Source: Pseudomonas sp. JQ170C (GTDB taxonomy: Bacteria > Pseudomonadota > Gammaproteobacteria > Pseudomonadales > Pseudomonadaceae). Taken from it: a DNA stretch of 64,000 nucleotides. Positions within the stretch are counted from its first letter, which is position 1. Each line of letters begins with the position of its first letter. Below, in pieces: positions 6,972 through 24,069 of the stretch. Both the position numbers and the translations under genes were made by a program. A model generated the notes under the pieces. The model worked only from the letters and a program-made list of their open reading frames with translations, made no database searches and had not been told where the DNA came from. The DNA lies in contig NZ_CP141608.1 in the NCBI RefSeq assembly GCF_035581345.1, forward strand, positions 3,192,501 to 3,256,500, in the 5' to 3' direction.

Positions 6972-7063
6972 ATCGACTCCTTTTATGTGGAACCTGTCCA
7001 CTGATGATGTGCTGGCAAGCCTTGCTCGCCCTGTTGAACAGGCTATGCGCACGGCTGCCCACC

Positions 7064-7086
7064 CTCCCCCCTCTCTTCGGGGGGAG
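7064..7086. other. Perfect inverted repeat in the sulfatase/LacI divergent gap
   Basis: CTCCCCCC and GGGGGGAG form perfect 8-bp arms around a 7-base loop, lying in the 197-bp gap between two divergent genes. No T-run follows in either direction, so it is not a standard terminator. It could be a leader hairpin or a protein site. A second short palindrome, CCTGTTGAACAGG, lies at 7030-7042. Confidence 0.5.
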
Positions 7087-7123
7087 TTGCCTGGGCGCTG
7101 CGTCGATAGCATCTGGCTCATGA

Positions 7124-7139
7124 GTGCACACGATTGCAC
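7124..7139. promoter_or_regulatory. Candidate LacI-family operator
   Basis: GTGCACACGATTGCAC is a dyad with perfect 5-bp outer arms and a CG step exactly at its centre, which is the usual form of LacI/GalR-family operators. It lies 29 bases before the lacI-type start, a suitable place for autoregulation. No second copy was noticed before the carrier gene. Confidence 0.5.
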
Positions 7140-7168
7140 AGGTTTGAACAACGGCCGGAGCGAACCCC

Positions 7169-8215
7169 ATGAAGCACCCCAGCACTGCCCAGGATTGCGC
7201 TGCCCAGCCAGGCTGTGCGCCTGTGGTGCGTGTCACCGCCAGGGACCTGGCACAGCGCATCGGGGTCGCCACCTCCACGGTCACCCGTGCCTTCGATGCG
7301 CAGTCGCGCATCTCGGCCGGCCTGCGCGCACGCATCCTGGCCATGGCCGACGAGCTGGGCTACCGGCCCAATGCCATCGCCCGCTCCTTGAACCTGCGCA
7401 AGACCGGCATCGTCGCGGTGGTGGTCGGCGACATGGCCAACCCCTTCTACCCCGCGCTGCTTGAAGAATTCTCCCGACAATTGCGCCAGACAGGGCGGCA
7501 ACTGCTGCTCTTCGTGGTGCCGCCCGGCAGCGATGCCGACGACCTGATGCCGCAACTGCTGCAGTACCAGGTCGACGCCATTGCCGTGACGGCGGCCAAG
7601 CTGTCTTCACACATGGCCCGGCTGTGCGCCCGCCAGGGTGTCGCCGTGGTGTTCATCAACCGCCGGGTGCAGGACGAGACGGTCTGGTCGGTGTGCTGCG
7701 ACAACGAGCGCATGGCGGCCGAAGTGGCCGACTATCTGCTGGGACAGCGGCGCCAGGCCTGCGCCTTCGTGTCCGGCGATTCGAGCATCTCCACCACGGC
7801 AGACCGCCTGCGCGGCTTCGAGCGCGGGCTGGCCGCGCAGGGTCAACGCTTGGTCGCCTGCGTCGAAGGTGGATACACCTATGAAGGCGGACGCGAGGCG
7901 GCGGCCCAGCTGTTCGGCGCCGGCAAAGCCGGCATCGATGCGGTGTTCTGCGCCAACGACGTCATGGCCCTGGGCGTACTCGGCTACCTGCGCATGAACA
8001 CGTCCTTGCGCGTGCCCGAGGACGTCGCGGTGGTCGGTTTCGACGACATCCGCGCGGCGGCCTGGCCGGAAAACGGCCTGACCACCGTGCACCAGCCCCT
8101 GAGCCAGATGATCGCCTGCGCCATCGGCCTGCTCAGCGAAGGGCGCCCCGCCACCGGCCTTGCCCCGGCGCTGCACGAGGTGCCGGGGCGACTGATCATT
8201 CGCTCCACGGCCTGA
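7169..8215 (+). CDS. LacI-family transcriptional regulator
   Basis: This 348-residue protein has a LacI-type helix-turn-helix near residues 22-45 (TARDLAQRIGVATSTVTRAF) and hinge helix, then a periplasmic-binding-protein-like ligand domain ending around VGFDDI and TVHQPL motifs typical of the family. It precedes and reads with the MFS, HisD-like, thioesterase, SDR and arylsulfatase genes, so it probably represses that unit in the absence of the transported compound. A dyad with a central CG at 7124-7139 is a candidate operator. The inducer is unknown. Confidence 0.92.
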   Translation: MKHPSTAQDCAAQPGCAPVVRVTARDLAQRIGVATSTVTRAFDAQSRISAGLRARILAMADELGYRPNAIARSLNLRKTGIVAVVVGDMANPFYPALLEEFSRQLRQTGRQLLLFVVPPGSDADDLMPQLLQYQVDAIAVTAAKLSSHMARLCARQGVAVVFINRRVQDETVWSVCCDNERMAAEVADYLLGQRRQACAFVSGDSSISTTADRLRGFERGLAAQGQRLVACVEGGYTYEGGREAAAQLFGAGKAGIDAVFCANDVMALGVLGYLRMNTSLRVPEDVAVVGFDDIRAAAWPENGLTTVHQPLSQMIACAIGLLSEGRPATGLAPALHEVPGRLIIRSTA

Positions 8216-8244
8216 CCGGGCAACCCCTGCAATCTCACAACGAC

Positions 8245-8252
8245 AACAACAA
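8245..8252 (+). promoter_or_regulatory. Candidate Hfq/Crc (CA) motif before MFS gene
   Basis: AACAACAA, within a longer ACAACAACAA run (8243-8252), directly abuts the GGAG ribosome site of the carrier gene. This is the classical placement for Crc/Hfq translational repression in Pseudomonas. Confidence 0.6.
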
Positions 8253-8262
8253 GGAGACAGCC

Positions 8263-9567
8263 ATGAACGCCACAGCGTCCTGCAACGATCGTGCGATGTA
8301 TCGAAAAATCACCTGGCGCATCATGCCGATGTTGCTGGTGGCCTATGTCGTGGCGTTTCTCGACCGGATCAACATCGGCTACGCCCAATTGCAGATGAAG
8401 GAAACCCTGGCCTTCAGCGATGCGGTCTATGCCCTGGGTGCGGGGGTGTTCTTCATTGGCTACCTGCTGTTCGAGGTGCCCAGCAACCTGATGCTGGAGA
8501 GAATCGGCGTGCGCAAGACACTGCTGCGCATCATGGTCTGCTGGGGCATCGTCGCCATGGCCATGATGTTCGTGCAGACGCCCACACAGTTCTACGTGCT
8601 GCGTTTTCTGCTCGGCGCCTTCGAGGCCGGCTTCACCCCCGGCGCGCTGCTTTACCTGACCTTCTGGTACCCACCGGCCCGGCGCGCGGGGATGATCGGC
8701 ATATTCCTGCTCGGGGCGATCTTTGCCAGCCTGATCGCCGGGCCGCTGTCCGGCGCCATCATGACCTTTCTCGATGGGCTTTATGGCTGGCATGGCTGGC
8801 AGTGGCTGTTCCTGGTCCAGGGCCTGCCCGCACCGCTGCTGGGGCTGCTGGCCTGGCGCGTGCTGGTCGACCGTCCCGAGCAGGCGAGCTGGCTGAGCGA
8901 CGCAGAAAAGGCCCGGCTGCGCCAGCAGCTGGACGCCGAACGCCAGTCCTCGACCAAGGCCGGCCATGCCTCCCTGCGCGACCTGCTGGGCGATGCCAAG
9001 GTCTGGGCGTTGGCGCTGGTCTATGTGTTGATGGTGGCGGGCACCTATGCCATGGCCTTCTGGATTCCGACCCTGATCAAAAGCTGGGGCGTCACCGATC
9101 TCATGGACCTCGGCCTGTACGCCACCCTGCCGCAGCTGTGCGCCATGGTCGGGGTGATCCTGCTCGGGCGCAGTTCGGACCGCTACCGCGAACGCCGCTG
9201 GCACTTCACCGCCGGCGCCCTGCTGGCCGCCTGCGGTCTGTCGGTGATCGCCCTGGGCCAGGGCCAGCTCGGTATCTCGCTGGTCGGCCTGTGCCTGGCC
9301 ATGTCGGGTATTGCCGCTGTGCCGCCGGTGTTCTTCGCCCTGCTTTCCGAATACCTGCCCCGCGCTTCGGTGGCGGTGGGCATCGCCCTGGTCAGCAGCA
9401 TCGGCAACCTGGGCGGGGCAATCATTCCCTCGCTGACCAGCGCCATCAATACCGCCAGCGGCGGCACGACCTACAGCCTGCTGTTGGTGGTGGGCCTGTA
9501 CCTGCTGGCCAGTCTGATCATTGTGCTGGCGTCCCGCCGGCCGGCAGCGGTTCTCCAATCCGCCTGA
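8263..9567 (+). CDS. MFS transporter, anion:cation symporter-type
   Basis: The 434-residue protein is an inner-membrane carrier with about 12 transmembrane segments. The N-terminal [14 protein letters not shown] signature (around residue 30) is characteristic of the ACS subfamily that imports tartrate, glucarate, 4-hydroxyphenylacetate and related carboxylates or sulfonates. The ATG at 8263 has GGAG seven bases upstream. It lies 47 bp after the LacI gene and 34 bp before the HisD-like gene, so it likely imports the substrate of that dehydrogenase. A sulfonate such as dihydroxypropanesulfonate is one candidate; the sequence does not prove it. Confidence 0.9.
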
Positions 9568-9601
9568 AGCACTCTTCCCTGAAACCCAAAGGACAGATCC
9601 C

Positions 9602-10885
9602 GTGATCCAACAACTCAAGAAAGGTCAATCGGCCCAGGCCAAGGCCAGCAATCAAGCCCAGGTGCGCGCCACCGTGGAAGGCATCCTCGCCGACATCGAG
9701 CAACGCGGTGACGCCGCGGTGCGCGAGTACTCCGAGAAATTCGACAACTGGGCGCCGCAAGACATGCGCCTGAGCCAGGAACAGATCGACGCGTGCATCG
9801 CCAGCCTGTCCCCGCAGACGCTCGACGACATCAAGTTCGCCCAGGCCCAGATTCGCCGCTTCGCCCAGATCCAGAAAGAGTCGATGCACGATGTCGAGGT
9901 CGAAACGCTGCCGGGCGTGGTGCTGGGCCATCGCAACATTCCGGTCAACTCGGTAGGTTGCTATATCCCCGGCGGCAAGTACCCGCTGATTGCCAGCGCC
10001 CACATGAGCGTGCTCACCGCCAAGGTTGCCGGCGTCAAGCGCGTGATCGCCAGCGCACCGCCGTTCGAGGGCCGGCCGTGCCCCGAAATCGTTGCCGCCA
10101 TGCACCTGGCCGGCGCGGACGAGATCTACTGCCTGGGCGGCGTTCAGGCCGTGGCTGCCATGGCCATCGGCACCCAGAGCATCGCCGGGGTCGACATGAT
10201 CGTCGGCCCGGGCAATGCCTATGTCGCCGAGGCCAAGCGCCAGCTGTTCGGCCGCGTGGGAATCGACCTGTTCGCCGGCCCGACCGAAACCCTGGTGATC
10301 TGCGATGACAGCGTGGATGCCGAACTGGTCGCCGTCGACTTGCTCGGCCAGGCCGAACACGGCCCCACCTCCCCGGCCTATTGCGTGACCACCAGCAAGA
10401 AGATCGCCGAAGAACTGCCGGCCGCGATCGACCGGGTGCTGTCGCGCCTGGACACCGCGCCGGTGGCCAGCGTGGCCTGGAACGACTTCGGCGAGATCTA
10501 CCTGTGCGACAGCGACGAAGAAGCCCTGGAAGTCGCCGAGCGCCTGTGTTCCGAACACGTGCAGGTCATGACCACCGACCCTGCCTGGTACCACGATCGC
10601 ATGACCCGCTACGGCGCCCTGTTCCTGGGCCACCGCACCAATGTCAGCTATGGCGACAAGGTCATCGGCACCAACCACACGCTGCCGACCATGGGCGCTG
10701 GGCGCTACACCGGCGGGCTGTGGGTCGGCAAGTTCATCAAGACCCACACCTACCAGCGCGTACTGACCGATCAGGCCAGCGTGATGATTGGCGAGTACTG
10801 CTCCCGGCTGTGCGGCTACGAGCATATGTCCGGCCACAAGGAGCAGGCGGATATCCGCGTGCGCCGTTTCAAGCAGGAGGCCTGA
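9602..10885 (+). CDS. HisD-family NAD-dependent alcohol dehydrogenase (sulfopropanediol 3-dehydrogenase-like)
   Basis: This 427-residue enzyme has the histidinol dehydrogenase fold with all four expected zinc ligands in matching spacing (Gln250, His253, Asp352, His412) and the catalytic pair Glu318-His319. Its placement with a sugar-acid-type carrier, a LacI regulator and an SDR, rather than with his genes, argues for a catabolic role like HpsN, the HisD homologue that oxidises 2,3-dihydroxypropane-1-sulfonate to sulfolactate. The GTG start at 9602 has AAAGGA eight bases upstream; an in-frame upstream extension overlaps the MFS gene and is rejected. Substrate assignment is inferred; the specificity residues of HpsN could not be checked. 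Confidence 0.75.
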
Positions 10886-10888
10886 AGC

Positions 10889-11325
<437 letters not shown>

Positions 11326-11329
<4 letters not shown>

Positions 11330-12228
11330 ACGACTTCAACGGCCGCGTGGCCGTGATCACCGGCGCCGCCTCCGGCCTGGGCAAGGCCTTTGCCGAAAAG
11401 GCTGCCGCGCTGGGCATGAAACTGGTGCTGGCCGACATCCAGGCCGAGGCGCTTGATGCCGTTGTCGCCGAGCTGCGAGCCCGCGGTGCTTCGGTGACAG
11501 GCCTGCGCACCGACGTTTCGCAGTCCGCCCAGGTGCAGGCCCTGGCCGACGCGGCACTGGCGCAGTTCGGTGCCGTACACCTGCTGTTCAACAATGCCGG
11601 GGTACTCGCCGGCGGCCTGGTGTGGGAGAACAGCGAAAAGGACTGGGACTGGCTGCTGGGTGTGAACGTGCGCAGCGTAATCCATGGCGTACGCATCTTC
11701 ACCCCGCTGATGCTGGCCGCCGCTGCGCAGGACCCGGACTACGAAGGGCATATCATCAACACCGCCTCCATGGCCGGGTTGCTCAACGCACCGACCCTGG
11801 GCGCCTACAACCTCACCAAACAGGCGGTGGTGTCGCTCAGCGAGACGCTCTACCACGACCTCACCCTGGTGACCGCGCAGGTGCATTGTTCGGTGTTGTG
11901 CCCGTTCTTCGTGCCGACCGGCATCAGCCTAAGCGCCCGCAACCGTCCCAGTGAGTTGGCCAACAGCGACGCACCGACACGTTCCCAGGCAGTGGCCCAG
12001 GCGCAGAACCAGGAGGCCACCGGCGCGGCCAAGGTCAGCAGCGAGCAGATCGCCGAGCTGACCTTCGCGGCGATCAGTCAGCGCCGCTTCTACATCTATT
12101 CGCACCCCCACGCCATGTCGTCTGTGCGCGAGCGTTTCGACGCGATTGTCGAGCAACGCAACCCACCCGACCCCTATGCGAGCAAACCCGCGTTGCGGGC
12201 TCAGTTGGTCGAGCGTTTACGCGCCTGA
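11326..12228 (+). CDS. Short-chain dehydrogenase/reductase
   Basis: This 300-residue SDR has the cofactor motif TGAASGLG near residue 12, the NNAG strand, an active-site YNLTK and a serine in NTASMAG. It overlaps the thioesterase gene by four bases (ATGA), implying translational coupling. It is expected to oxidise a hydroxyl or reduce a carbonyl in the same pathway as the HisD-like enzyme. The C-terminal 50 residues extend beyond a minimal 250-residue SDR. An HpsO-like role is possible but not supported by any specific residue. Confidence 0.85.
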
Positions 12229-12271
12229 CGCCCCTGGCCCGGCATTCACATTCAAGATGAGGAGACCGTTC

Positions 12272-13870
12272 ATGATCGAGTGCATCAAGCGACTGGCCCT
12301 GGCTGGCATGGCCGTCGCCGCGCTGGCCGCACCGCTGGCACAGGCCCAGCCGGCCAAACCCAATATCCTGGTGATCTGGGGCGACGACATCGGCTGGCAG
12401 AACGTGAGTGCCTATGGCATGGGCACCATGGGCTACACCACGCCCAACATCGACCAGATCGGCATGCAAGGCATCCGCTTTACCGATCACTACGGGCAAC
12501 CGTCCTGCACGGCCGGCCGCGCGGCGTTCATTACCGGGCAGTACCCGATTCGCTCCGGGCTGACCACCGTGGGCCTGCCGGGCGACAAGCTCGGCTTGCA
12601 GGCCGCCTCGCCGAGCCTGGCCGAGGTGTTGAAACAGGCCGGTTACCGCACCGGCCAGTTTGGCAAGAACCACCTGGGCGACAACAACCCCAACCTGCCG
12701 ACGGTGCACGGCTTCGATGAATTCTTCGGCAACCTGTACCACCTCAACACCGAGGAGCAGAGTGAGTACACCGATTACCAGAACTTCGCCAAACAGTACC
12801 CCGGCGGCCCCAAGGCCTACGCCGAGAAATTCGCCACCCGGGGTGTGCTGCACAGCTTTGCCAGCGAAAGGGACGATCCAACGGTCGACCCACGTTTCGG
12901 CGTGGTCGGCAAGCAGACCATCAAGGACAGCGGCCCGCTGACCACCCAGCGGATGGAAGATTTCGACGGCGCGGAGGTGATCCCCCATGCGCTGGACTTC
13001 ATGCGCAGGGCAAAAAGCGCCGACAAGCCGTTCTTCGTCTGGCTCAACACCAGCCGCATGCACCTGTACACCCATCTCAACGAAAAATGGCAACACGCCG
13101 CCGCCCAGTACACCCACGAGGACGACACCCAGGGCAGCGGCATGATGCAGCACGACCACGACATCGGTCAGGTGCTCGATTTCCTCAAGGCGAACGGCCT
13201 GGATGAAAACACCATCGTCTGGTACTCCACCGACAATGGTCCGGAGCACTCCTCCTGGCCGCACGGTGCGACGACACCGTTTCGCGGCGAGAAGATGACC
13301 ACCTACGAAGGTGGCGTGCGCGTGCCGTCCCTGTTGCGCTGGCCCGGCACCGTCAAGCCTGGCCAGATCAAGAACGGCATCCAGGCGCACCAGGACATGT
13401 TCACCACCCTGGCCGCGGCGGCGGGCGTGCCGGATGTGGTCGAGCGCATGAAAGTGGAAAAAAAGCAGTACATCGACGGCATCAACAACCTCGACTACTG
13501 GACCGGCAAGGCCCCGCAAAGCGCGCGGACCAGCCTGCTCTACTACATAGAGAGCAAACTGACCGCCGTACGCATGGGCCCCTGGAAGCTGCACTTCTCG
13601 ACCAAGGAAGACTACTACGCCCCGATCAAGCCGCTGTTCGCGCCGCTGATGTTCAACCTGCGCAGCGACCCGTTCGAGAGCTATGACAGCAACGATTCCT
13701 ACGGCCACATGATCCAGAAATCGTCGTGGATCTCCGCGCCGATGAGCGAACTGATCGCGGCGCACCTCAAATCCCTGGCCCAGTACCCGCCGGTGCAGAC
13801 GGCCAAGTCGTTCGACCGCTCGAACCTGGTGCAGGACTTTCTCAAGAGCCAGCAAAAACCGGCCCCCTGA
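12272..13870 (+). CDS. Exported arylsulfatase, formylglycine type
   Basis: The 532-residue protein is a type I sulfatase hydrolysing sulfate esters, probably in the periplasm. It has a Sec signal peptide (about 1-26, ending AQA), metal-binding GDDIG (37-41), the cysteine to be converted to formylglycine in SCTAGR (Cys79), GKNHLG (K132, H134) and STDNGPE later on. The modification motif is C-x-A-x-R rather than the common C-x-P-x-R. The ATG at 12272 follows GAGGAGA; a longer in-frame reading overlaps the SDR gene and is rejected. It closes the LacI-led unit. No maturation enzyme is encoded here, so activation must use one elsewhere. Confidence 0.93.
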
Positions 13871-13905
13871 GTACAGAAGCGGGCTCGATCTGTAGGAGCG
13901 GGCTC

Positions 13906-14475
13906 GGTGGGAGCGGGCTTGCCCCGCGATGAGTGTCCTGAGCCATGCACATCCAGGCGCAACAGCGAAGCGGGATTACTGGCTGGCATGGGTCTTTCGG
14001 CAAGATTCAAGATCCATCGCGGGGCAAGCCCGCTCCTACATTTCGAGCTCGGTGGGAGCGGGCTTGCCCCGCGATGAGTGCCCTGAGTCATGCACATCCA
14101 GGCGCAACAGCGAAGCGGGATCACCGGCAGGCATGGGTCTTTCGGCACGATTCAAGATCCATCGCGGGGCAAGCCCGCTCCTACATTTCGAGCTCGGTGG
14201 GAGCGGGCTTGCCCCGCGATGAGGCCCTGAGTCATGCATATCCAGGCGCAACCGCGAAGCGGGATCACCGGCAGGCATGGGTCTTTCGGCAAGATTCAAG
14301 ATCCATCGCGGGGCAAGCCCGCTCCCACATTTCGGGCTCGGTGGGAGCGGGCTTGCCCCGCGACGAGGCCCTGAGTCATGCACATCCAGGCGCAACAGCA
14401 AAGCGGGATCACCGGCAGGCATGGGTCTTTCGGCAAGATTCAAGATCCATCGCGGGGCAAGCCCGCTCCTACAGA
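13906..14475. repeat. Tandem array of four ~145-bp REP doublets
   Basis: Each unit starts at GGTGGGAGCGGGCTTGCCCC (13906, 14051, 14196, 14340) and ends with the inverted REP copy, with a conserved linker of about 90 bases. Spacing is 145, 145 and 144 bp. It fills most of the 764-bp gene-free stretch between the arylsulfatase and thiolase genes. A partial REP also occurs at about 13892. Open frames in all directions here are by-products of the repeat. Confidence 0.93.
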
Positions 14476-14483
14476 TTGGGCTC

Positions 14484-14527
14484 GGAAGGGGCCGGCGGCC
14501 TCACCACATCAAATGGATAAGCCCACA
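14484..14527 (-). repeat. Solo end of the long dispersed intergenic repeat
   Basis: The reverse complement reads GCTTATCCATTTGATGTGG then the GC-rich GCCGGCCCCTTCC block. The same terminal sequence occurs at 46479, 47353 (reverse) and 63067, where it belongs to a repeat of a few hundred bases. Only the end survives here. Confidence 0.75.
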
Positions 14528-14530
14528 ACA

Positions 14531-14555
14531 CCAACCCAACCCAACCCAACCCAAC
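14531..14555. repeat. (CCAAC)5 microsatellite
   Basis: Five uninterrupted copies of the pentamer CCAAC lie in the leader 80 bases before the thiolase start. Such tracts can vary by slippage; no effect on coding is evident because it is upstream of the ribosome site. Confidence 0.85.
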
Positions 14556-14634
14556 CAAAAATCATCACCCCCGAAATTCCCAGAAGAACCTTTCCCAAAC
14601 AGGGCCAAATCTTCCAGCAACCAGGAGCACCACC

Positions 14635-15819
14635 ATGAAAGAAGCCGTCATCCTTTCCACCGCCCGTACACCCATCGGCAAAGCCTTTCGCGGCGCCTTC
14701 AACATCACCACCGCACCGACCCTGGCCAGCTTCGCGATACGCGCCGCAGTCGAACGCGCCGGCATCGAAGCCAGTGAAATCGACGACCTGGTGATGGGCA
14801 CCGGCATGCCGGCAGGCACCGCCGGCTGGAACCTGGGCCGCATGAGCGCCCTGGCCTCCGGCCTGCCGCTGAGCGTCAGCGGCCAGACCCTCGACCGCCA
14901 ATGCGCGTCAGGGCTGATGGCCATCGCCACCGCCGCCAAGCAAATCATGGTCGACGGCATGCACGTGACCCTGGGCGCGGGCCAGGAACACATCAGCCTG
15001 GTACAGAACCGCCACATGGAATGGGTCGGCAGCCAGCACGACGACAGCGTCCTGCGCAATGTGCCGCAGGCCTACATGCCAATGCTGCACACAGCGGAAC
15101 TGGTCGCCAAACGCTACGGCATCAGCCGCGAAGCCCAGGACCTCTACAGCCTGCAATCGCAACAGCGCACCGCTGCTGCCCAGCAGGCAGGTGTGTTCAG
15201 CCATGAAATCGTCCCGGTCAGCGTGACCCGGCAGGTGGTCGACAAGGCCAGTGGCGCGGTCAGCCATGAACAGGTCAGCCTGAGTCTCGACGAAGGCAAC
15301 CGCCCACAGACCCAGCTTGAAGACCTGAGCAAACTCAAACCGGTGATCGAAGGTGGCTGCATCACCGCAGGCAATGCCAGCCAGCTATCGGATGGCGCCA
15401 GCGCCTGCGTATTGATGGACGCGCGCCTGGCCGAACAGCGCAATCTGCAACCGCTGGGCCTGTACCGGGGCATCGCGGTGGCGGGCCTGGCGCCGGAAGA
15501 AATGGGCATTGGCCCAGTACTGGCCGTACCAAAGCTGCTGAAGCAGCATGGCTTGAAGGTCGACGATATCGGCCTCTGGGAGCTCAACGAAGCCTTTGCC
15601 TGCCAGGTGCTTTACTGCCGGGACACACTGGGCATCGACAACGACCGGCTCAATGTCAACGGCGGCGCGATTTCAATCGGTCACCCGTACGGCATGAGCG
15701 GTGCGCGCATGGTCGGGCATGCCTTGCTGGAAGGTAAACGCCGTGGCGTGAAGTACGTGGTGGTGACCATGTGCGTCGGCGGTGGCATGGGTGCGGCCGG
15801 TTTGTTCGAGGTGTTTTGA
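14635..15819 (+). CDS. Acetyl-CoA acyltransferase (thiolase)
   Basis: The 394-residue protein is a degradative thiolase that cleaves 3-oxoacyl-CoA with CoA. The nucleophilic cysteine is in DRQCASGL (Cys90), followed by [15 protein letters not shown] with the catalytic histidine, and the C-terminal CVGGGMG with the second cysteine. The ATG at 14635 is preceded by CAGGAG. It stands alone between a repeat array upstream and a convergent HAL-like gene downstream, so its pathway partner is unclear; other beta-oxidation genes in the window lie 20 kb away. It could equally be a biosynthetic acetoacetyl-CoA thiolase. Confidence 0.9.
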
Positions 15820-15835
15820 GGGTCGCTCCGAGCAG

Positions 15836-15861
15836 CCGGCCCGGTGCGTCCACCGGGCCGG
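15836..15861. terminator. Perfect inverted repeat between convergent genes
   Basis: Eleven-base perfect arms, CCGGCCCGGTG and CACCGGGCCGG, flank a 4-base loop in the 49-bp gap between the convergent thiolase and HAL-like genes. There is no clear T-run, so termination in both directions is likely but not certain. Confidence 0.55.
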
Positions 15862-15868
15862 TGCGCAA

Positions 15869-17416
15869 TCACTGGTTGGCCAGCACGCGGTCTACCACGG
15901 CGAGCACTTCGCCCCCGCGCAGTTGCTCGGTTACCGCGACGATATCGGGGTAGAACGCGCGGTCTTCATCGGCCACCGGCACGCGGCTGCGCACCAGGTC
16001 ATACAGCGCACGGGTGGCGCTGGAGGCCTTGCCCACCTCATGGAAATCCAGGGCCTGGCAGCCGACCAGGATTTCGATGGCCAGCACCGACTCCAGCTTG
16101 CGCGACACCTGGTACGCCTTGATCGCCGCGTTGAAGGCAAAACTCACCGGGTCTTCCTGGTTGCCGCAGGTGGAGACACTGTCGATGGTGGACGGGTGCG
16201 ACAGCACCTTCATCTCCCCCAGCAGCCCGGCGGCGGTGTACTGGATGATCATGTAGCCATTGTTGAGCCCGGGATTGCGTACCAGGAAGGCGGGCATTTC
16301 GCTGAAATGCGAATTGACCATGCGGTCGGTACGCCGCTCGGAGATCTTCGCCAGGTTGGTCATCGCGTTGCAGAGCGTGTCGGCCGCCATGCCGATGTAG
16401 GAACCATCGAAGTTCGCCCCGGAGATGGCAATACCGTCATCGTCGCTGAGCGGGTAGATCACCGGGTTGTCGCCCGAGGAGCCGATCTCGTTGTCGATGC
16501 AGGCCTGGGCGTAGGCGATGAACTGCTTGGAGGCACCGTGCACTTGGGGGATGGCGCGCAGGCTGTAGGTGTCTTGCAGGCGGTAGTCGATGTGCTCCTC
16601 GATCATCTGGCTGTCGCCCAGCAACTGCTTGATGTAGCGAGCGGTCTGCGCCTGTGCGGCGTGAGCCTTGACGGAGTGGTAGCGCGGGTCGAAGGCGCGA
16701 ATGGTGCCCTTGAGTGCCTGCAGGGAAATGGCCGCCGCCACGTCCGCCACCTGGGCGGCCTGGTTGGCGTTGTACTGCGCCAGGGTGGCGATGGCGGTGA
16801 CCGAGGTGGTGCCGTTGAGCATCGCCAGGCCTTCCTTGCACTGCAGCGCGATCGGTTGCATGCCCACCTGACGCAATGCACTCGCACCGTCCACCCACTC
16901 GCCACCGGCGACGCTGGCCTTGCCTTCGCCGATCAGCACCAGCGCCAGGTGCCCTTCGGGGCCGAGGTAACCCACCGAACCTTCGCTGGGGGCAAACGGC
17001 ACCACGTCGTTGTTGAGCAGCCCGGCGATCTGTTCAAGCAGCGCCATGCGTACGCCAGAGAAGCCCTTGCCCAGGCTGACCAGAATCATCAACTGCACGG
17101 CGCGCACCTGCTCGCGGTTCAGTGGCTCGCCCACCGACACGGCGTGGGAACGCACGATGTTCACTTGCAGGGTTTGCGCGTCCTCAGGCGAGATCACATG
17201 CCGGACGTTGTCGCCAAAGCCTGTGGTCACGCCATACACCAGGCGGTTTTCGTCGAGGAAGCGTTCGATCAGCCGACGCGAACGTGCAACGCGGGCACGG
17301 TATGCATCGGAGAAACTCACCTTTGCGCCATAACGGGCGACGGCAATGAATGCCTCGATGGAGGGCTTGGCATCGTCCAGTACAACGTTGGCGATATCTT
17401 GGGGTTGAATGCGCAT
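15869..17416 (-). CDS. HAL/PAL-fold lyase lacking the MIO tripeptide
   Basis: This 515-residue protein aligns throughout with histidine/phenylalanine ammonia-lyases: YGVTTGFG (61-68), LNGTT, QDTYSLR and PQVHG. However, where the family has GSVGASGDLAPLAH, this protein reads GSVGYLGPEGH (146-156). The Ala-Ser-Gly that cyclises to the MIO electrophile is absent and the loop is three residues shorter, with no sign of a frameshift. It should therefore not act as an ordinary ammonia-lyase. Ergothionase, a HAL relative that eliminates trimethylamine without needing MIO activation as far as I recall, is an attractive model. It ends an operon with a Rieske oxygenase pair and an amino-acid ABC importer. 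Confidence 0.72.
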   Translation of the reverse strand: MRIQPQDIANVVLDDAKPSIEAFIAVARYGAKVSFSDAYRARVARSRRLIERFLDENRLVYGVTTGFGDNVRHVISPEDAQTLQVNIVRSHAVSVGEPLNREQVRAVQLMILVSLGKGFSGVRMALLEQIAGLLNNDVVPFAPSEGSVGYLGPEGHLALVLIGEGKASVAGGEWVDGASALRQVGMQPIALQCKEGLAMLNGTTSVTAIATLAQYNANQAAQVADVAAAISLQALKGTIRAFDPRYHSVKAHAAQAQTARYIKQLLGDSQMIEEHIDYRLQDTYSLRAIPQVHGASKQFIAYAQACIDNEIGSSGDNPVIYPLSDDDGIAISGANFDGSYIGMAADTLCNAMTNLAKISERRTDRMVNSHFSEMPAFLVRNPGLNNGYMIIQYTAAGLLGEMKVLSHPSTIDSVSTCGNQEDPVSFAFNAAIKAYQVSRKLESVLAIEILVGCQALDFHEVGKASSATRALYDLVRSRVPVADEDRAFYPDIVAVTEQLRGGEVLAVVDRVLANQ

Positions 17417-17511: not shown

Positions 17512-18282
17512 TCAGGCGTGGCTGAGAATGAACCGGCTGAAGCGCTCGCAGTGTTGTTCGTTGAACATCTCCTGCGGGGTGCCCTGGGCTTCGATCAGCC
17601 CCTGATTCATGAACACCACGCGGTTGGAAACGTTGCGGGCAAAGCCCATTTCATGGGTGACCACCAGCATGGTCCGGCCCTCCTCGGCGAGCGAACGCAT
17701 CACCTTGAGCACCTCGCCAACCAGCTCCGGGTCGAGTGCCGAGGTCGGTTCATCGAACAGGATGACCCGCGGGCGCATCGCCAGGGTGCGGGCAATGGCC
17801 ACCCGCTGTTGCTGGCCCCCGGAGAGGAACGCCGGGTAGTGGTCGCGCTTGTCGGCCATGCCCACTTTCTCCAGCAGTGCCTCGGCTTCGTCGATGCACT
17901 CGGCGCGCGGACGCTTCTGTACATGCACCGGGCCTTCGATGACATTCTGCAGCACCGTCATGTGCGACCACAGGCCGAAGCTCTGGAACACCATGCCCAA
18001 CTCCGGGCGCATGCGATCGACCTGGCGCCGGTTGGCGGGCACCATCAGCTGATGGCGGCCACGCTTGAACGCCACCTGCTCGCCGGCGACATGGATCTCG
18101 CCGGCATCGGGAACTTCGAGCAGGTTGATGCAGCGCAGGAAGGTGCTCTTGCCCGAGCCGCTGGCACCGAGTATCGACACCACGTCGCCCTCGTGGGCAT
18201 CCAGCGAGATGCCCTTGAGCACCTCCAGGTTGCCGAAGGATTTGCGGATGTGTTTTACCTGCAACACTGGATCTGTAGTCAT
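17512..18282 (-). CDS. Polar amino-acid ABC transporter ATP-binding protein
   Basis: The 256-residue cytoplasmic ATPase is of the HisP/GlnQ type. It shows Walker [10 protein letters not shown] (about 39-47), signature [13 protein letters not shown], Walker [12 protein letters not shown] and the switch histidine in [10 protein letters not shown]. The insertion between the Walker A and signature regions ([16 protein letters not shown]) matches the HisP-like subgroup that works with two permeases for basic amino acids and their derivatives. It follows the two permease genes by five bases and is downstream of the binding protein, completing an importer. Confidence 0.95.
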
Positions 18283-18287
18283 GCCAC

Positions 18288-19025
18288 TTACCCCCTACGT
18301 ACGCTGAGTGCGTACTTTTTTGTTGTTGGACTCGCGGTGACGGGCTGCCGGGGTGACAACCGCTGTTCGACCCACGCCAGCGTGCGGACAATCAGGAAAT
18401 TCAGCACCAGGTAGATCAACGCGGCACACAGGAACACCTCAAGCGTGCGGTAGGTTTCAGCGATGATCCGCTGCGCCACGCCGGACACTTCGTAGACCGT
18501 GACCAGGCTCGCCAGCGAGGTCGCCTTCATCATCAGGATGATCTCCGTCGAATAGGCCGGCAGGCAGCTGCGCAGGGCGATGGGAATGATGATCCGACGC
18601 GCCAGCAACCCGCCCGACATGCCCGCGGCCCGCGCCGCTTCGATTTGCTGGGGCGGCACGGCCAGCAAGCCGCCACGGAAGATCTCCGCCATGTAGCCCG
18701 CCGTACACAGCGCCAGGGCAATCACCGCACAACTGAGCGGATCACGCAGCACCGGCCAGAACGGGCTCTGGCGTACCTCTGGAAACTGGCTCAGCCCGTA
18801 ATAGAGCAAGAACATCTGGATCAGCAGCGGCGAGCCGCGAAACAGGAAGATGTAGCTGCGCGCCAGGTGACGCAGCACCGCGACCTCGCACACCCGCATC
18901 CACACCAGCAGCAATGCCAGCAGCGTACCGATGGCGACCGAGGCGGCGAACAGCAGCAGCGTGGTCGGCAGCGCCCGCAGCAGTTGCAGCAGGGTGTCAC
19001 CGACAAAAGCGATATCTACAGACAT
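18288..19025 (-). CDS. Polar amino-acid ABC transporter permease (HisM-like)
   Basis: This 245-residue inner-membrane protein has about five transmembrane segments and the EAA loop ([20 protein letters not shown]) typical of HisM/HisQ permeases that contacts the ATPase. The gene lies between the other permease (12 bp upstream) and the ATPase (5 bp downstream). The two different permeases form a heterodimeric channel, as in the histidine/lysine/arginine/ornithine and octopine systems. Confidence 0.94.
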
Positions 19026-19037
19026 GGTTGGCTCCCT

Positions 19038-19739
19038 TCAGCTGCGAAAGGTTCTGCCCACGCGCAGTTCAGCGCGGGAGAACACCAGGTTGGAAATCCC
19101 CGTCAACACCAGGTAGAGCGCGCAGCCGGTCATGAAGAACAACACGAATTGCCCGGTGGAGGCCGCCGCCACGCGGCTGGCGCGCATCAGCTCCACCAGC
19201 CCGGTGACCGAGATCAGCGCCGAATCCTTCAGGGTGATCTGCCAGACGCCACCGATGCCCGGCAAGGCAAAACGCAGGATCTGGGGCGCAACGACCCGGC
19301 GAAAGCGCAGCATCAGCGGCATGCCGATGGCCTTGGCCGCCTCCAGTTCGCTGCGCGAAACCGCCTGGAACGCCCCGCGATACACCTCGGCCTGATAGGC
19401 CCCGGACACCACCCCGACCGCCAGTGCGCCCACCAGGAACGCCGGCATGCTGATAAAACCCTCGGCACCGAACAGCCCGCCCACGCTGCTCACCAAGGCC
19501 GAGCCGCCATAGAAAAACAGGTAGATCACCAACAGCTCCGGAATGCCCCGGAATACCGTGGTGTAGCCATCGCCCAGCGCCCGCAGCAGCCCGCTGGGGT
19601 GCAGCTTGGCGGCCGCGACGAGTGCGCCGAGCACCGCCCCCACCAGCAACGCCGCCAACGTCACCAGTACCGTCATGAGCGCGGCCATGAGCAGCACGCT
19701 GCCCCAGCCTTTTGCGCCGAATCCAATCAAGTCGATCAC
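19038..19739 (-). CDS. Polar amino-acid ABC transporter permease (HisQ-like)
   Basis: The 233-residue inner-membrane protein is the second permease subunit, with about five membrane spans and the EAA loop ELEAAKAIGMPLMLRFRRVV. The start is a GTG at 19739, preceded by AGGTGG seven bases upstream. It is the first permease after the binding-protein gene, from which it is separated by 100 bp carrying a strong hairpin. Confidence 0.93.
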   Translation of the reverse strand: MIDLIGFGAKGWGSVLLMAALMTVLVTLAALLVGAVLGALVAAAKLHPSGLLRALGDGYTTVFRGIPELLVIYLFFYGGSALVSSVGGLFGAEGFISMPAFLVGALAVGVVSGAYQAEVYRGAFQAVSRSELEAAKAIGMPLMLRFRRVVAPQILRFALPGIGGVWQITLKDSALISVTGLVELMRASRVAAASTGQFVLFFMTGCALYLVLTGISNLVFSRAELRVGRTFRS

Positions 19740-19839: not shown

Positions 19840-20691
19840 TTATTGGCTGGGGGGTGTGAAGTCGTGCTTGAACCATTTGCGGCTGAGCTGGCTGATCGTC
19901 CCGTCTGCAATCAGCGAGTCGATCGCCGCGTCCAGCTTGGCCTTGAGCGCCGCTTCCCCCGGACGAATGCCAAAGGCCTCCCCTTCGCCCCAGATCGGCC
20001 CATTGATGGCCGGGCCGACCAGCACCAGCCCGCTGTCGCTGCCGCGTTGCAGTTCCCCGGAGAGAAAGCCGAGGTCCTCGAACACCACGTCGACACGGCC
20101 GTTCTTCAGGTCCATCAGCGGCTCGGGCGGGGTCTTGTATTCACGGATGGTCGCCACCTGGCCGAACTGGTCGCGGATGAACTTGCTGTACACGGTGCCG
20201 GTGACGATGCCGATCAGCTTGCCCTTGAGGCGCTCGCGCAGCGCCTCCACCGCCGGTGTATCGCGCTCGGGGTTACCCTGCAGTTGCAACGTACCGCTGC
20301 CCAGGTCGATGGCGCTGGACTGCAGCGCAATGAACGTGGCCGGGGCCTTGGTGTAGGGGCGGGAGAAGTCGATCACCTTGCGCCGCTCCGGGCTGATCGC
20401 CAGGGCATCCATCACCACATCGAACTTGCCGGCCTTGAGCCCCGGGATCAGGCCGTCCCAATCCTGGGCAACGATGGTGCAGCGGGCGTTCATGCGCTCG
20501 CACAAGACCTTGGCCATCTCCGGCTCGAAGCCATCGAAAGAGCCATCGGGCAAGGTGCGGTTCCAGGGTTCGTAGACGCCCTCGGTGGCGATCTGGATGC
20601 TGTCCCACTCCTTGGCGTGGGTGATCAGCGAGACACTGGTCATCAACAACATCAGCGAGCAGGCGGCGAATCGAGTTTTATTGTTGTTCAT
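19840..20691 (-). CDS. Periplasmic amino-acid-type substrate-binding protein
   Basis: The 283-residue protein is the periplasmic receptor of the importer, SBP_bac_3 family. It has a signal peptide (1-26, ending THA) and the conserved opening IATEGVYEPWNRTLPDGSFDGFEPEMAK in which the family places ligand-contacting residues, followed by DWDGLIPGLKAGKFD and the ISPERR motif. HisJ/LAO/octopine-type receptors bind cationic amino acids and opines. The start codon region contains AACAACAA. It follows the Rieske reductase gene by 128 bp, so the imported compound is probably the substrate of the oxygenase or of the HAL-like lyase. Confidence 0.92.
   Translation of the reverse strand: MNNNKTRFAACSLMLLMTSVSLITHAKEWDSIQIATEGVYEPWNRTLPDGSFDGFEPEMAKVLCERMNARCTIVAQDWDGLIPGLKAGKFDVVMDALAISPERRKVIDFSRPYTKAPATFIALQSSAIDLGSGTLQLQGNPERDTPAVEALRERLKGKLIGIVTGTVYSKFIRDQFGQVATIREYKTPPEPLMDLKNGRVDVVFEDLGFLSGELQRGSDSGLVLVGPAINGPIWGEGEAFGIRPGEAALKAKLDAAIDSLIADGTISQLSRKWFKHDFTPPSQ
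20681..20688 (-). promoter_or_regulatory. Candidate Hfq/Crc (CA) motif at binding-protein start
   Basis: AACAACAA occupies codons 2-4 directly after the ATG. Early-codon placement is compatible with Hfq/Crc repression. Confidence 0.55.
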
Positions 20692-20819: not shown

Positions 20820-21926
20820 TCAATTGTTCAGCGCCAACACCACCGGGGAGGTCGGCCGCGCACAACACAACAACACCTGGCCAGGTTCGGGGGTGATCAG
20901 CGGCGCCTCGCTGTACTCGACGCTGCCGCTGAGCAGTGGCGTCAGGCAGCTGTTGCACAGCCCGGCGCGACAACTGAAGGGCGGCGCGAGCCCGGCCTGC
21001 TCGGCACAGTCGAGCAGCGAGGGATAGGCGCTATCCCAGGCCACGGACAACCCCGAGGGCTCGAAGCGCACGCTAAGGTCACCGCCGACCGCAGGCACCG
21101 GGGCCGCCACAGGGGGCGCAGCCGGGGCTTCGTCTTCATCGAGGATCGTCGCCGGGCCGAAGAACTCGTAGCGAATGCGTGCGCTGTCGATCCCCAGGCC
21201 GCGCAGCAGCCGCCAGTTCGCCTGCATGAACGGACGGGGCCCGCACAGGTAGGCGTCGTAGTCGTCGAGGGGCAGCATCGCCTGCAGCGTTTCCCGACTG
21301 ACCAGCCCGCTGCTGTGGTGGTCAGCACGGCGCACGTCGTCATCGGTCGGCGTCCGGTAGCAGAAGTGCACCACGATCCCGGCGCGCCGGGCGGCCAACG
21401 CCAGCACCTCTTCACGCAGGGCATGCACGGCGCCGTTCTCGCAGGCATGGATGAAGTACACCGGCCGCGTGGTACAGGCCAGCCGATGCAGCATGCTCAC
21501 CATGGGGGTCAGGCCCACCCCGCCGCTGAACAGCAGCACCGGCCGTTCGCTGCTTTCGTCCAGCACGAAGGTGCCCGACGGGCCGGCGATTTCCAGCTGC
21601 TCGCCCACCTCCACCGATTGATGCAAGAAGCTCGAGCCCACACCGGCCGGCAGGTCGGGCAAATGCGCCGGCGGCAACTCGTGCTTCACCGAGATACGCA
21701 GTTGCGAGGGGTCGCCCGGGTCGCTCGACAGGCTATAGGCACGCAGCACCTGCGGGCCCTCGGCCTGGGGTATGCGAACCACGATGAACTGGCCCGGGCG
21801 AAACGCCACACGGCCATCGTCTGCGGCAGGTTCGAGCACGAACGAGGTGATCGACGCGCTTTCTCGCACCTTCCTGGTCACCTGGAAGCGCGCGAAGCCC
21901 TTCACGGCGGGAATGGTGTCAAGCAT
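20820..21926 (-). CDS. Rieske-oxygenase reductase (FAD, NAD(P)H, C-terminal 2Fe-2S)
   Basis: The 368-residue protein passes electrons from NAD(P)H to the adjacent Rieske oxygenase. It shows an FAD-binding RAYSLSS motif (about 82-88), the nucleotide-binding GGVGLTPM and CGPRPFM, an Ala/Pro-rich linker near 268-285, and a plant-type ferredoxin domain with CRAGLCNSC and a fourth cysteine in LLCCARP. This order matches GbcB, CntB and Hcr reductases. The ATG at 21926 overlaps the oxygenase stop by eight bases, implying coupled translation. Confidence 0.9.
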   Translation of the reverse strand: MLDTIPAVKGFARFQVTRKVRESASITSFVLEPAADDGRVAFRPGQFIVVRIPQAEGPQVLRAYSLSSDPGDPSQLRISVKHELPPAHLPDLPAGVGSSFLHQSVEVGEQLEIAGPSGTFVLDESSERPVLLFSGGVGLTPMVSMLHRLACTTRPVYFIHACENGAVHALREEVLALAARRAGIVVHFCYRTPTDDDVRRADHHSSGLVSRETLQAMLPLDDYDAYLCGPRPFMQANWRLLRGLGIDSARIRYEFFGPATILDEDEAPAAPPVAAPVPAVGGDLSVRFEPSGLSVAWDSAYPSLLDCAEQAGLAPPFSCRAGLCNSCLTPLLSGSVEYSEAPLITPEPGQVLLCCARPTSPVVLALNN

Positions 21927-22983
21927 GAGCCTGGACCTCGCGGGTTGCGATCAGGTTGCCGGCGCCTGCCTGTTCTTCGCGTATCAGGCGCTCCATGGCC
22001 CGGCGAAAACGCAGCGGGCCGGAGTCGATGGCCAGGTCGATGTTGGCGCTCTGGCGGTTTTTCATGCCGGCGTGCACGGCGGCGAGGATCACCCGGTCCT
22101 CCTCGAAGGCCTTGCGCACATCGACGGCGAACTGGCGCGAGACGCTCTCGCTGTCGGCATCGAAGTTGCGCAACTGGAACCAGTAGTAACGGGTGCGGTT
22201 TTCGTCGACCGGTGTCATGAAGTTGTAGGAGTCCATCAGGAACGCTTGTTCGTGCACCGGGGCATCGTCGCCACCATGGCCGGCCGGGGTATGGACCCCC
22301 TTGATGATGGCGTGCGCCGGGAACCGTACCTCGTAGTACTGCAGGCGATCGCAACGCCCCTCGAACTTCAGGTGCTGCTGATAGAAAGGCGCAACCTCGA
22401 TGTCGTACAGCCACCGTGACACCACCACGCCATCGCCCTGCTCCACGGTCTGCAACGGCTGGGATTCGCAGGCCGAGGTACCGAAGGAGCTCTGGTGCAC
22501 CCAGGCGACGTGGGAGGGGTCGAGCAGGTTGTCGGTCATGTACAGGTAGTTACAGTCGATGGTCATCGAGTCGCCACGGTTCACGCCCCAGTTCGGGTCA
22601 TCCCACTCGGCAATCTCAAGCAGCTTGGCAGGGTCGGCCAGCGCCGCATCGCCCATCCACAGCCAGACCAGGCCGTAGCGCTCCTCTACCGGGTAGCTGC
22701 GGACCTTCGCCGCCAGGGGAATGCGCGACACGCACGCGGCCTTCACGCAGGCGCCGGCGCCGTCGAACGTCAGCCCGTGGTAGCCGCACTCGACCACGTC
22801 ACCCAGCAGGCGCCCCATCGACAGCGGCAATTTGCGGTGCGGGCACGCATCCTCCAGGGCAACCACGGCGCCATCGGTCTTGCGATACAGCACGATGGAC
22901 TCGCCAAGGAGGGTGGTCGCATGCAGGGCCTGCTTCACTTCGGTATCCCAGGCGGCGGCGTACCAGGCGTTTCTCAAGAACAT
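21919..22983 (-). CDS. Rieske non-heme iron monooxygenase, VanA-like
   Basis: This 354-residue oxygenase has the Rieske 2Fe-2S ligands Cys47, His49, Cys66 and His69 (CPHRKLPLS...CGYHGLTF) and the mononuclear iron site NLLDPSHVAWVH (Asp155, His158, His163). Size and motif spacing fit the vanillate/dicamba O-demethylase group, so a demethylation or hydroxylation of a small aromatic or heterocyclic compound is expected. It is the first gene of the minus-strand operon; SD GAGGAG and an AACAACAA motif lie just upstream. A LysR gene is divergent. The substrate is unknown; context with the amino-acid importer and HAL-like lyase suggests an amino-acid derivative. Confidence 0.9.
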   Translation of the reverse strand: MFLRNAWYAAAWDTEVKQALHATTLLGESIVLYRKTDGAVVALEDACPHRKLPLSMGRLLGDVVECGYHGLTFDGAGACVKAACVSRIPLAAKVRSYPVEERYGLVWLWMGDAALADPAKLLEIAEWDDPNWGVNRGDSMTIDCNYLYMTDNLLDPSHVAWVHQSSFGTSACESQPLQTVEQGDGVVVSRWLYDIEVAPFYQQHLKFEGRCDRLQYYEVRFPAHAIIKGVHTPAGHGGDDAPVHEQAFLMDSYNFMTPVDENRTRYYWFQLRNFDADSESVSRQFAVDVRKAFEEDRVILAAVHAGMKNRQSANIDLAIDSGPLRFRRAMERLIREEQAGAGNLIATREVQAHA

Positions 22984-23136: not shown

Positions 23137-24069
23137 ATGAGCCACCTGCCCCCGTTACGCGCACTGGAAGTTTTTGAAGCCGTGGGTTTGTGCGGCGGTA
23201 TCACCCAGGCAGCAAAGCGCCTGGGCATTTCCGCCGGCGCAGTCAGCCAGCAAATGAAGCTTCTGGAAGAGGCCGTGGGCCTTAGCCTGACCGCCAAGGA
23301 AGGCCAGCGCCTGCGCCTGAACGCGGCCGGCCAGCGCTTTCATGAAGGGTGCAGCCAGGCCTTCGAGCGCCTGCGCGCGGCCTATGCGGAGCTGGAACGC
23401 TCCAAGAATGCGAACAACCTCTACATCAGCGCCCTGCCCTCACTGCTGTCCAAGTGGCTGGCGCCCCGGGTGGCCGACTGGCAGCTGGAGCATCCACAAC
23501 TGAGCGTCTACCTCGACGGCACCCACACCGAACCTTCGGAGGCGCAGGCCAACGGCGTGGATTTTCGTCTCAGTTACGGAGAAGGCATGCACGATGACCA
23601 GCACACCATCGAGCTGTTTCGCGATTGCGTGGTGCCCGCCTGCAGCCCGGCGCTACTGGCGGGCACGGTGGAGCCCCGCGAGTTGCTGGCCCACCCGCTG
23701 ATCACCATCGACTGGCGACCGAAGTTCGACTCACCGCCGTCCTGGGAGCAGTGGTTTGCCGATGCAGGTGTCGGCGAGGTGACCATCCGCAACTACCGGA
23801 TCTATTCCCTCTCCTCCATGGCCATACAGGCGGCGATCGAGGAGCAAGGCATCGTCCTGGCGCAGTATTCGATGATCCGCAGGGACCTGGATAGCGGCCG
23901 CCTGGTCATTCCGTGCCTGCGTGCGCTGCCCATGCCGGCGGCGTATTACCTGACCTGGAATCAGAACAGTTTTCACCGTAGCCAGTGCCGGACTTTTCAA
24001 CGCTGGCTGATCAATCAGGGGCGGGATCAGCAAGACGTGACCGACCAACTCCTGAAGCGAAATCAGTGA
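23137..24069 (+). CDS. LysR-family regulator (GcvA-like)
   Basis: The 310-residue protein has an N-terminal LysR helix-turn-helix (LRALEVFEAVGLCGGITQAAKRLGIS..., shown in part at residues 7-24) and a GcvA-type effector domain recognisable by FRLSYGEG and the late AIEEQGIVLAQYSM. It is divergent from the Rieske oxygenase operon with 153 bp between, so it is the likely activator of that operon and of the co-transcribed importer and lyase. An apparent LysR dyad lies in the gap. The inducer is probably the imported compound or a metabolite. Confidence 0.92.
   Translation: MSHLPPLRALEVFEAVGLCGGITQAAKRLGISAGAVSQQMKLLEEAVGLSLTAKEGQRLRLNAAGQRFHEGCSQAFERLRAAYAELERSKNANNLYISALPSLLSKWLAPRVADWQLEHPQLSVYLDGTHTEPSEAQANGVDFRLSYGEGMHDDQHTIELFRDCVVPACSPALLAGTVEPRELLAHPLITIDWRPKFDSPPSWEQWFADAGVGEVTIRNYRIYSLSSMAIQAAIEEQGIVLAQYSMIRRDLDSGRLVIPCLRALPMPAAYYLTWNQNSFHRSQCRTFQRWLINQGRDQQDVTDQLLKRNQ

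Follow-up and report, generated by a model that had tools for sequence, protein, structure and literature searches.

What reaction is left to a protein with the fold of a histidine ammonia-lyase (HAL) when the tripeptide that forms the 4-methylideneimidazole-5-one (MIO) group is missing? The question is raised by a gene in the window analysed here, a 64,000-nucleotide stretch of the Pseudomonas sp. JQ170C genome (NZ_CP141608.1, positions 3,192,501 to 3,256,500), whose product, P0002, is confirmed as a HAL-fold protein without the MIO-forming Ala-Ser-Gly. We propose, with a probability of about 0.6, that P0002 is a MIO-independent trimethylamine-lyase of hercynine (histidine betaine, Nalpha-trimethylhistidine), which would release urocanate and trimethylamine. 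Hercynine has mainly been known as a biosynthetic intermediate on the way to ergothioneine. The proposal draws on sequence comparison, gene neighbourhoods and a predicted structure.

A HAL-fold protein without the MIO tripeptide

P0002 and the relatives that share its loop are called clade A below. The features of the gene are:
15869..17416, minus strand: MIO-less HAL-family lyase P0002, clade A (515 residues; PF00221, 536 bits; placed by tree, alignment and AlphaFold2 model)
16949..16981, minus strand: loop codons of residues 146-156, GSVGYLGPEGH, at the position of the MIO-forming loop in HutH (Tyr150, 16967-16969; Glu154, 16955-16957)
16406..16408, minus strand: codon of Asp337, at the HutH His330 position and invariant in clade A by alignment

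The open reading frame (ORF) runs from an ATG at 17416 down to 15869 with no internal stop. The original prediction, made from the DNA alone, had read GSVGYLGPEGH at residues 146-156 in a frame intact on both sides, and the translated ORF matches it exactly. The claimed shortening by three residues is likewise borne out by the MIO-type HutH of the same genome, whose loop is GSVGASGDLAPLAH; the placement of the gap is ambiguous, one option being that Ala-Ser-Gly is missing and Asp145 is read as Tyr. The loop of P0002 retains neither an X-Ser-Gly nor an X-Tyr-Gly as the source of a MIO-like group, and because Ala-Ser-Gly is absent, MIO is not expected in this protein.

The aromatic lyase fold covers the whole protein (PF00221 cut-off 27.3 bits). 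P0002 scores 526 bits against the hutH equivalog model TIGR01225, below its cut-off of 539.15, and 531 bits against the broader histidine ammonia-lyase subfamily model NF006871, above its cut-off of 524. The AlphaFold2 model (pLDDT 92.1, pTM 0.93) superposes on Pseudomonas putida HAL (1b8f, 36% identity) with TM-scores of 0.91/0.92, so that the superposition suggested in the original prediction supports the HAL fold; identity to the Treponema denticola ergothionase 6s7j is 25%. Could a sequencing error have produced the loop, as the original prediction had allowed for? This is ruled out by the same loop pattern in relatives from other genomes and by a low dN/dS against four orthologues (0.06, 0.09, 0.10 and 0.11). 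An ordinary HutH is ruled out as well, by the missing tripeptide and by the separate HutH in the same genomes.

A changed loop in a retained pocket

The pattern GS[VL][GA]YLxxE[GA]H is shared by 29 aligned clade-A proteins, encoded in 28 genomes of Proteobacteria, Bacillota and Actinomycetota, with Gly146, Ser147, Tyr150, Leu151, Glu154 and His156 invariant, an invariance that is partly by construction because the rows were chosen by their loop. For the residue counts, clade A was defined by a loop pattern containing Glu154, which makes the constancy of Glu154 there a matter of definition; the counts omit three clade-B rows (clade B is introduced below) and one MIO-type row cut by the sequence end, as well as one broken clade-B row. 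The position of HutH His330 played no part in choosing rows, and it is Asp in 33 of 33 different clade-A sequences. Among MIO-type rows, HutH Asp145 (80/80), Leu149 (77/80) and His330 (79/80) are conserved, and all three are changed in clade A.

The pocket residues tell a different story. HutH-type residues 53, 83, 277, 283, 382, 413 and 414 are kept in clade A (33/33), with Tyr53, Arg283, Gln277 and Glu414 invariant; Met382 and Gln413 are each found in 33 of 33 sequences and Asn195 in 27. In HutH, the kept residues serve to bind the imidazole, bind the carboxylate and supply the base. The earlier statement that the rest of the active-site framework is kept therefore holds for the pocket and fails at Asp145, Leu149 and His330: comparison of the catalytic residues finds the clade-specific replacements Tyr150, Glu154 and Asp337 next to a HutH-like substrate site. 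Two ergothionase-type proteins depart from this pocket, with Gly at 382, Ile or Met at 413 and Ser at 195.

A proposed elimination of trimethylamine from hercynine

Trimethylammonium is already a good leaving group, so an electrophile would be unnecessary, and it could depart without MIO. In the proposed mechanism, the imidazole-binding residues would hold the substrate ring, Tyr61 (HutH Tyr53) would take the beta proton, and Tyr150, Glu154 and Asp337 near the former MIO site may stabilise the quaternary ammonium until its departure; the urocanate formed would enter the ordinary hut pathway. Hercynine is favoured as substrate because it is a histidine derivative with a built-in leaving group and because betaine transporters accompany the lyase in some lineages. 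Histidine itself is already served, since each of the 19 clade-A genomes examined has a MIO-type HutH. The original prediction had implied a pre-activated leaving group such as trimethylamine, a direction supported by BCCT transporter genes that adjoin clade-A genes in Acidaminococcus and in a Eubacterium metagenome-assembled genome (MAG), and an ergothionase-type lyase gene in Clostridium bowmanii. It had named hercynine or ergothioneine; the first is favoured over the second, given the canonical hutU, the thiourocanate hydratase result below and the retained Met382 and Gln413.

The downstream enzymes bear on the product. Three urocanases, from the clade-A operon of TH31, the Curtobacterium cluster and a clade-B operon of our genome, score 1018, 911 and 1026 bits against hutU (cut-off 375) and 688, 653 and 693 bits against thiourocanate hydratase (cut-off 930). 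Thiourocanate hydratase (NF058530) exceeds its cut-off in none of 21 clade-A genomes, two of which lack any match, which is a test of the pathway and not of the enzyme. Because the urocanases score as hutU and no thiourocanate hydratase passes, urocanate is the likely clade-A product. Of 19 clade-A genomes, 17 contain urocanase (PF01175), and the two without a match are Paraburkholderia assemblies. Re-examination of five genomes showed complete copies in Paraburkholderia sacchari and Pseudomonas brassicacearum, and in Paraburkholderia silviterrae a 97-residue end piece at two contig starts. The idea that Paraburkholderia genomes lack urocanase is countered by the full P. sacchari copy and the partial P. 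silviterrae pieces, but may still hold for P. caffeinitolerans and P. oxyphila.

The operon and its counterparts

In the window, the Rieske oxygenase, reductase, binding protein, two permeases, ATPase and lyase genes follow one another in one direction, with a LysR gene divergent:
17512..18282, minus strand: ABC transporter ATPase, HisP-like polar amino-acid type (317.6 bits with HisP, its best model, which falls short of the cut-off of 466)
18288..19025, minus strand: ABC transporter permease
19038..19739, minus strand: ABC transporter permease
19840..20691, minus strand: substrate-binding protein, SBP_bac_3, whose nearest solved relatives are octopine- and nopaline-binding proteins
20820..21926, minus strand: FAD/NAD/[2Fe-2S] reductase, likely partner of the Rieske oxygenase
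21919..22983, minus strand: Rieske monooxygenase alpha subunit, VanA_C type, related to dicamba O-demethylase
23137..24069, plus strand: divergent LysR-type regulator, relatives of which adjoin the lyase in Pseudomonas and Paraburkholderia

The Rieske oxygenase and its reductase would probably carry out oxidative N-demethylation, either of the released trimethylamine or of another methylated imidazole. Elsewhere in the same genome (L138, C1:4609000-4626000, positions 5029-16376) lies a cluster with a Rieske oxygenase 65% identical to that of the window, a reductase (59%) and a LysR regulator (55%), together with an ABC importer, a HutC-type repressor, a further hutU and a CaiB/oxalate-type CoA-transferase, and without a lyase. 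The cluster points to imidazole compounds feeding the hut pathway as substrates of these Rieske enzymes. Also in the window, at 13899-14485, a 144-bp unit is repeated 4.1 times in tandem (95% matches) between a sulfatase-like gene and a thiolase gene.

The same seven genes and regulator are found in Pseudomonas sp. BN417 and 14P_8.1 (L012 and L013), and in Paraburkholderia the same set is reordered, with a distant reductase (24-27% identical). Other pseudomonads (L014, L016) retain the regulator, lyase and transporter plus one further enzyme: in TH31 and TH41 a urocanase that shares about 95% identity with the HutU encoded in our genome, and in P. brassicacearum a clade-B lyase. In Curtobacterium, an IclR regulator is followed by the lyase and an MFS transporter, facing hutU, hutF and hutI, with the MIO-type hutH on another contig. 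A BCCT transporter directly precedes the lyase in Acidaminococcus, where hutH, hutU and hutI lie further on; in the Eubacterium MAG, a BCCT gene sits between two clade-A lyases, and in Smac51 a sodium:solute symporter precedes the lyase. Directly upstream of the Eubacterium lyases and BCCT gene is a cluster that, judged by eye from its ORFs, is an ethanolamine-utilisation microcompartment cluster (L128, 132-13629).

Across the 27 clade-A loci (L012-L035, L071, L072 and L122), a transporter was assigned in 22: PAAT in 13, MFS in 5, an adjacent BCCT in 3 and SSF in 1. L018 ends soon after the lyase and had none assigned. The 55 loci with a MIO-type main match contain no PAAT or MFS transporter, one SSF match and one BCCT; as the transporter queries were taken from clade-A loci, taxonomically close loci score more easily. 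The sole BCCT locus of this set, L089 of Clostridium bowmanii, also carries an adjacent ergothionase-type lyase. When loci are sorted by gene content, 5 of the 27 that hold a MIO-less lyase also have a BCCT gene, versus 0 of the 53 that hold none (Fisher p 0.0034, on rows that are not phylogenetically independent). Among these five BCCT genes, one in Paraburkholderia lies about 4.7 kb away from the lyase, and another is the one beside the ergothionase-type lyase. In L089 (11619-18469), that lyase stands between BCCT and xanthine-dehydrogenase-like subunits, and an ordinary hut cluster adjoins. The ergothionase-type protein of L089 has no match to an ergothionase-named NCBIfam model, so a missing match is uninformative there.

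Three groups of MIO-less lyases

Four PF00221 genes are present in the single 5.94-Mb contig of our genome: HutH, P0002, a second MIO-less protein (P0003) and a distant one with Ala-Ser-Gly. Within the family of the source genome, 7 of 298 genomes, ours included, have a match at an E-value of 1e-120 or better, the other six at 78-94% identity. In a scan of genome contigs, the best 80 loci of at least 553 confirmed relatives had a clade-A protein as main match in 25 cases, with further clade-A genes in Eubacterium (L034) and Neobittarella (L071). The hosts are Pseudomonas, Paraburkholderia, Bacillus/Gottfriedia, Streptomyces, Microbacteriaceae including Curtobacterium, Acidaminococcus, Eubacterium and Neobittarella. 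One further clade-A gene, that of Smac51 (49.5% identity), lies on a plasmid of a cockroach-gut deltaproteobacterium; it was the only close clade-A member among the best 60 of 742 plasmid records, the next being at 42.7%. A scan of viral contigs gave no relatives. Among 249 genomes of the Curtobacterium family, only the query genome was clade-A-like (732 bits; next 489).

How often was MIO lost? In a quick tree built without the loop columns, clade A (23 proteins used), clade B (9 proteins, including P0003) and a third group, clade E, made up of T. denticola ergothionase and its Clostridium relative, each had a support of 100, and no row with another loop fell inside clade A. Approximately unbiased (AU) topology tests on a quick tree reject neither clades A and B as one (p 0.55) nor all MIO-less rows as one (p 0.46), and are compatible with one loss as well as with several.

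Clade B, with the loop GSVGYLTHMAH in P0003, resembles clade A in being MIO-less, in its HutH-like residues 53, 83, 277, 283, 382, 413 and 414, and in lying near ABC transporters and hut genes; it differs in having His or Val at 330, Leu at 280 and Pro or Ala at 329. Genes for a HalD-like 2-oxoglutarate-dependent oxygenase, a PAAT importer and an OprD porin lie in one run with that of P0003, as does a urocanase gene whose product shares 98.5% identity with the main enzyme. A formaldehyde-glutathione dehydrogenase gene near this cluster (L127, C1:4624000-4643900, positions 5727-17009) would fit N-demethylation. In three other Pseudomonas genomes (L099, L106, L113) the clade-B gene directly adjoins hutH, and in Sinorhizobium it follows a glycine betaine/proline-type ABC transporter and hutF. 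A review reports a Pseudomonas hut gene to be dispensable for growth on histidine (PMC8871633); at a guess from gene position, clade B may correspond to this HutH1 of P. fluorescens SBW25, and a hercynine lyase activity would offer a possible reason for the dispensability.

Further MIO-less HAL relatives were seen at L134 (3137-5622), L135 (3913-5463), L133 (2927-4486) and L136 (3678-5150), with the loops GSLGESDLAPLAH or GSIGESDLAPLAH in Pseudomonas and GSVGTGDIA in Streptomyces. The Pseudomonas locus L134 adjoins an OpuAC glycine-betaine binding protein and an ornithine cyclodeaminase-like gene; the Streptomyces locus L133 adjoins an ABC transporter whose permease appears by eye to be of the betaine type.

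Weighing the alternatives

Several observations weigh against a hercynine lyase. Urocanase was present in the fetched stretch of only 7 of 26 clade-A loci (L122 not counted) and none was seen nearby in the other 19, compared with 33 of the 55 MIO-type loci, as expected of hut clusters; P. caffeinitolerans has only 36-residue urocanase pieces at two contig starts and P. oxyphila only a weak 32-residue match. The window operon itself lacks urocanase, the genome having three elsewhere, and its importer is PAAT-type with an opine-binding-like protein instead of a classical betaine system. BCCT adjoins the lyase in just 3 of the 27 loci, and three Streptomyces loci (L028-L030) and that of Neobittarella lack all four transporter types. 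In Acidaminococcus and Neobittarella, the lyase lies within an ordinary hut cluster, which simple hutH duplication could equally give. Finally, the proposal leaves the Rieske pair of the window operon unexplained.

Which other activities could account for the data? The opine-like binding protein of the window and the canonical urocanase near some clade-A genes would suit a MIO-independent lyase acting on another urocanate-yielding histidine derivative, such as an opine-like N-(carboxyalkyl)histidine or a partly methylated histidine. We consider this unlikely: by general chemistry, an amine that is secondary or tertiary leaves poorly without MIO, and in other lineages the lyase is accompanied by BCCT betaine transporters. 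An ergothionase, which would form thiourocanate by eliminating trimethylamine from ergothioneine or from its sulfonate or S-methyl form, has precedent in the MIO-less T. denticola enzyme with its Glu at the His330 position; a single MIO loss is not rejected by the tests, and BCCT is paired with an ergothionase-type lyase in Clostridium. It is rather unlikely for clade A all the same, which forms a separate group at 25% identity to 6s7j, carries Met382, Gln413 and Asn195 where the two ergothionase-type proteins differ, and has no genome that passes the thiourocanate hydratase cut-off.

Could the protein instead have no catalytic role? The lack of MIO and the coexistence with HutH in 19 of 19 genomes would be compatible with a dead HutH paralogue that regulates or binds, but we regard this as quite improbable in view of the invariant Tyr53, Arg283, Gln277 and Glu414, the dN/dS of 0.06-0.11 and the occurrence with transporter genes across three phyla. 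Betaines of other aromatic amino acids, for example tyrosine or tryptophan betaine, would fit the betaine transporters near some clade-A genes, but they are hard to reconcile with the HutH-type pocket in all 33 sequences and the recurrence of urocanase beside the lyase in several lineages, which makes them highly improbable substrates. Elimination of trimethylamine from hercynine is the reading that we prefer.

Implications and relation to known systems

Current annotation does not consistently separate these proteins from HutH. Among eight clade-A and clade-B proteins scanned, three (P0002, P0003 and the clade-B protein of L016) pass NF006871 and five pass neither model; P0003 and the L016 protein also pass TIGR01225, which P0002 does not. 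Each of the five annotated MIO-less records examined is named histidine ammonia-lyase. If the proposal is true, a set of proteins of that name is misnamed, hercynine gains a catabolic route, and Acidaminococcus has a candidate trimethylamine-forming enzyme beside the choline, carnitine and ergothioneine routes. More tentatively, and at somewhat less than even odds, loss of the MIO tripeptide may be a general switch from ammonia-lyase to quaternary-amine lyase, with clades A and B both acting as hercynine trimethylamine-lyases through which bacteria of soil, plants and the gut channel hercynine into the hut pathway; Acidaminococcus would then have an additional source of trimethylamine, and the HutH1 of fluorescent pseudomonads, dispensable for histidine, would be explained.

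What seems new here is a separate MIO-less clade spread over three phyla, with an unmodified histidine pocket and links to urocanase. Open-access titles and abstracts on hercynine breakdown, ergothionase and MIO-less histidase contained no hercynine lyase among the matches listed. Clade A offers a natural test of how MIO is replaced when the leaving group is already good. Compared with HutH, which has the MIO tripeptide, Asp145, Leu149 and His330, clade A differs at every one of these. A known parallel is ergothionase, a HAL-fold trimethylamine-lyase that is reported to lack MIO (PMC13405746): the T. denticola enzyme (6s7j/6s7q) is likewise a HAL fold without MIO and with an acidic residue, Glu, at HutH position 330, but it differs from P0002 in overall sequence, in its loop (SSIGEGDITTLSH), in the residues at 382 and 413, and in belonging to a clade of its own.
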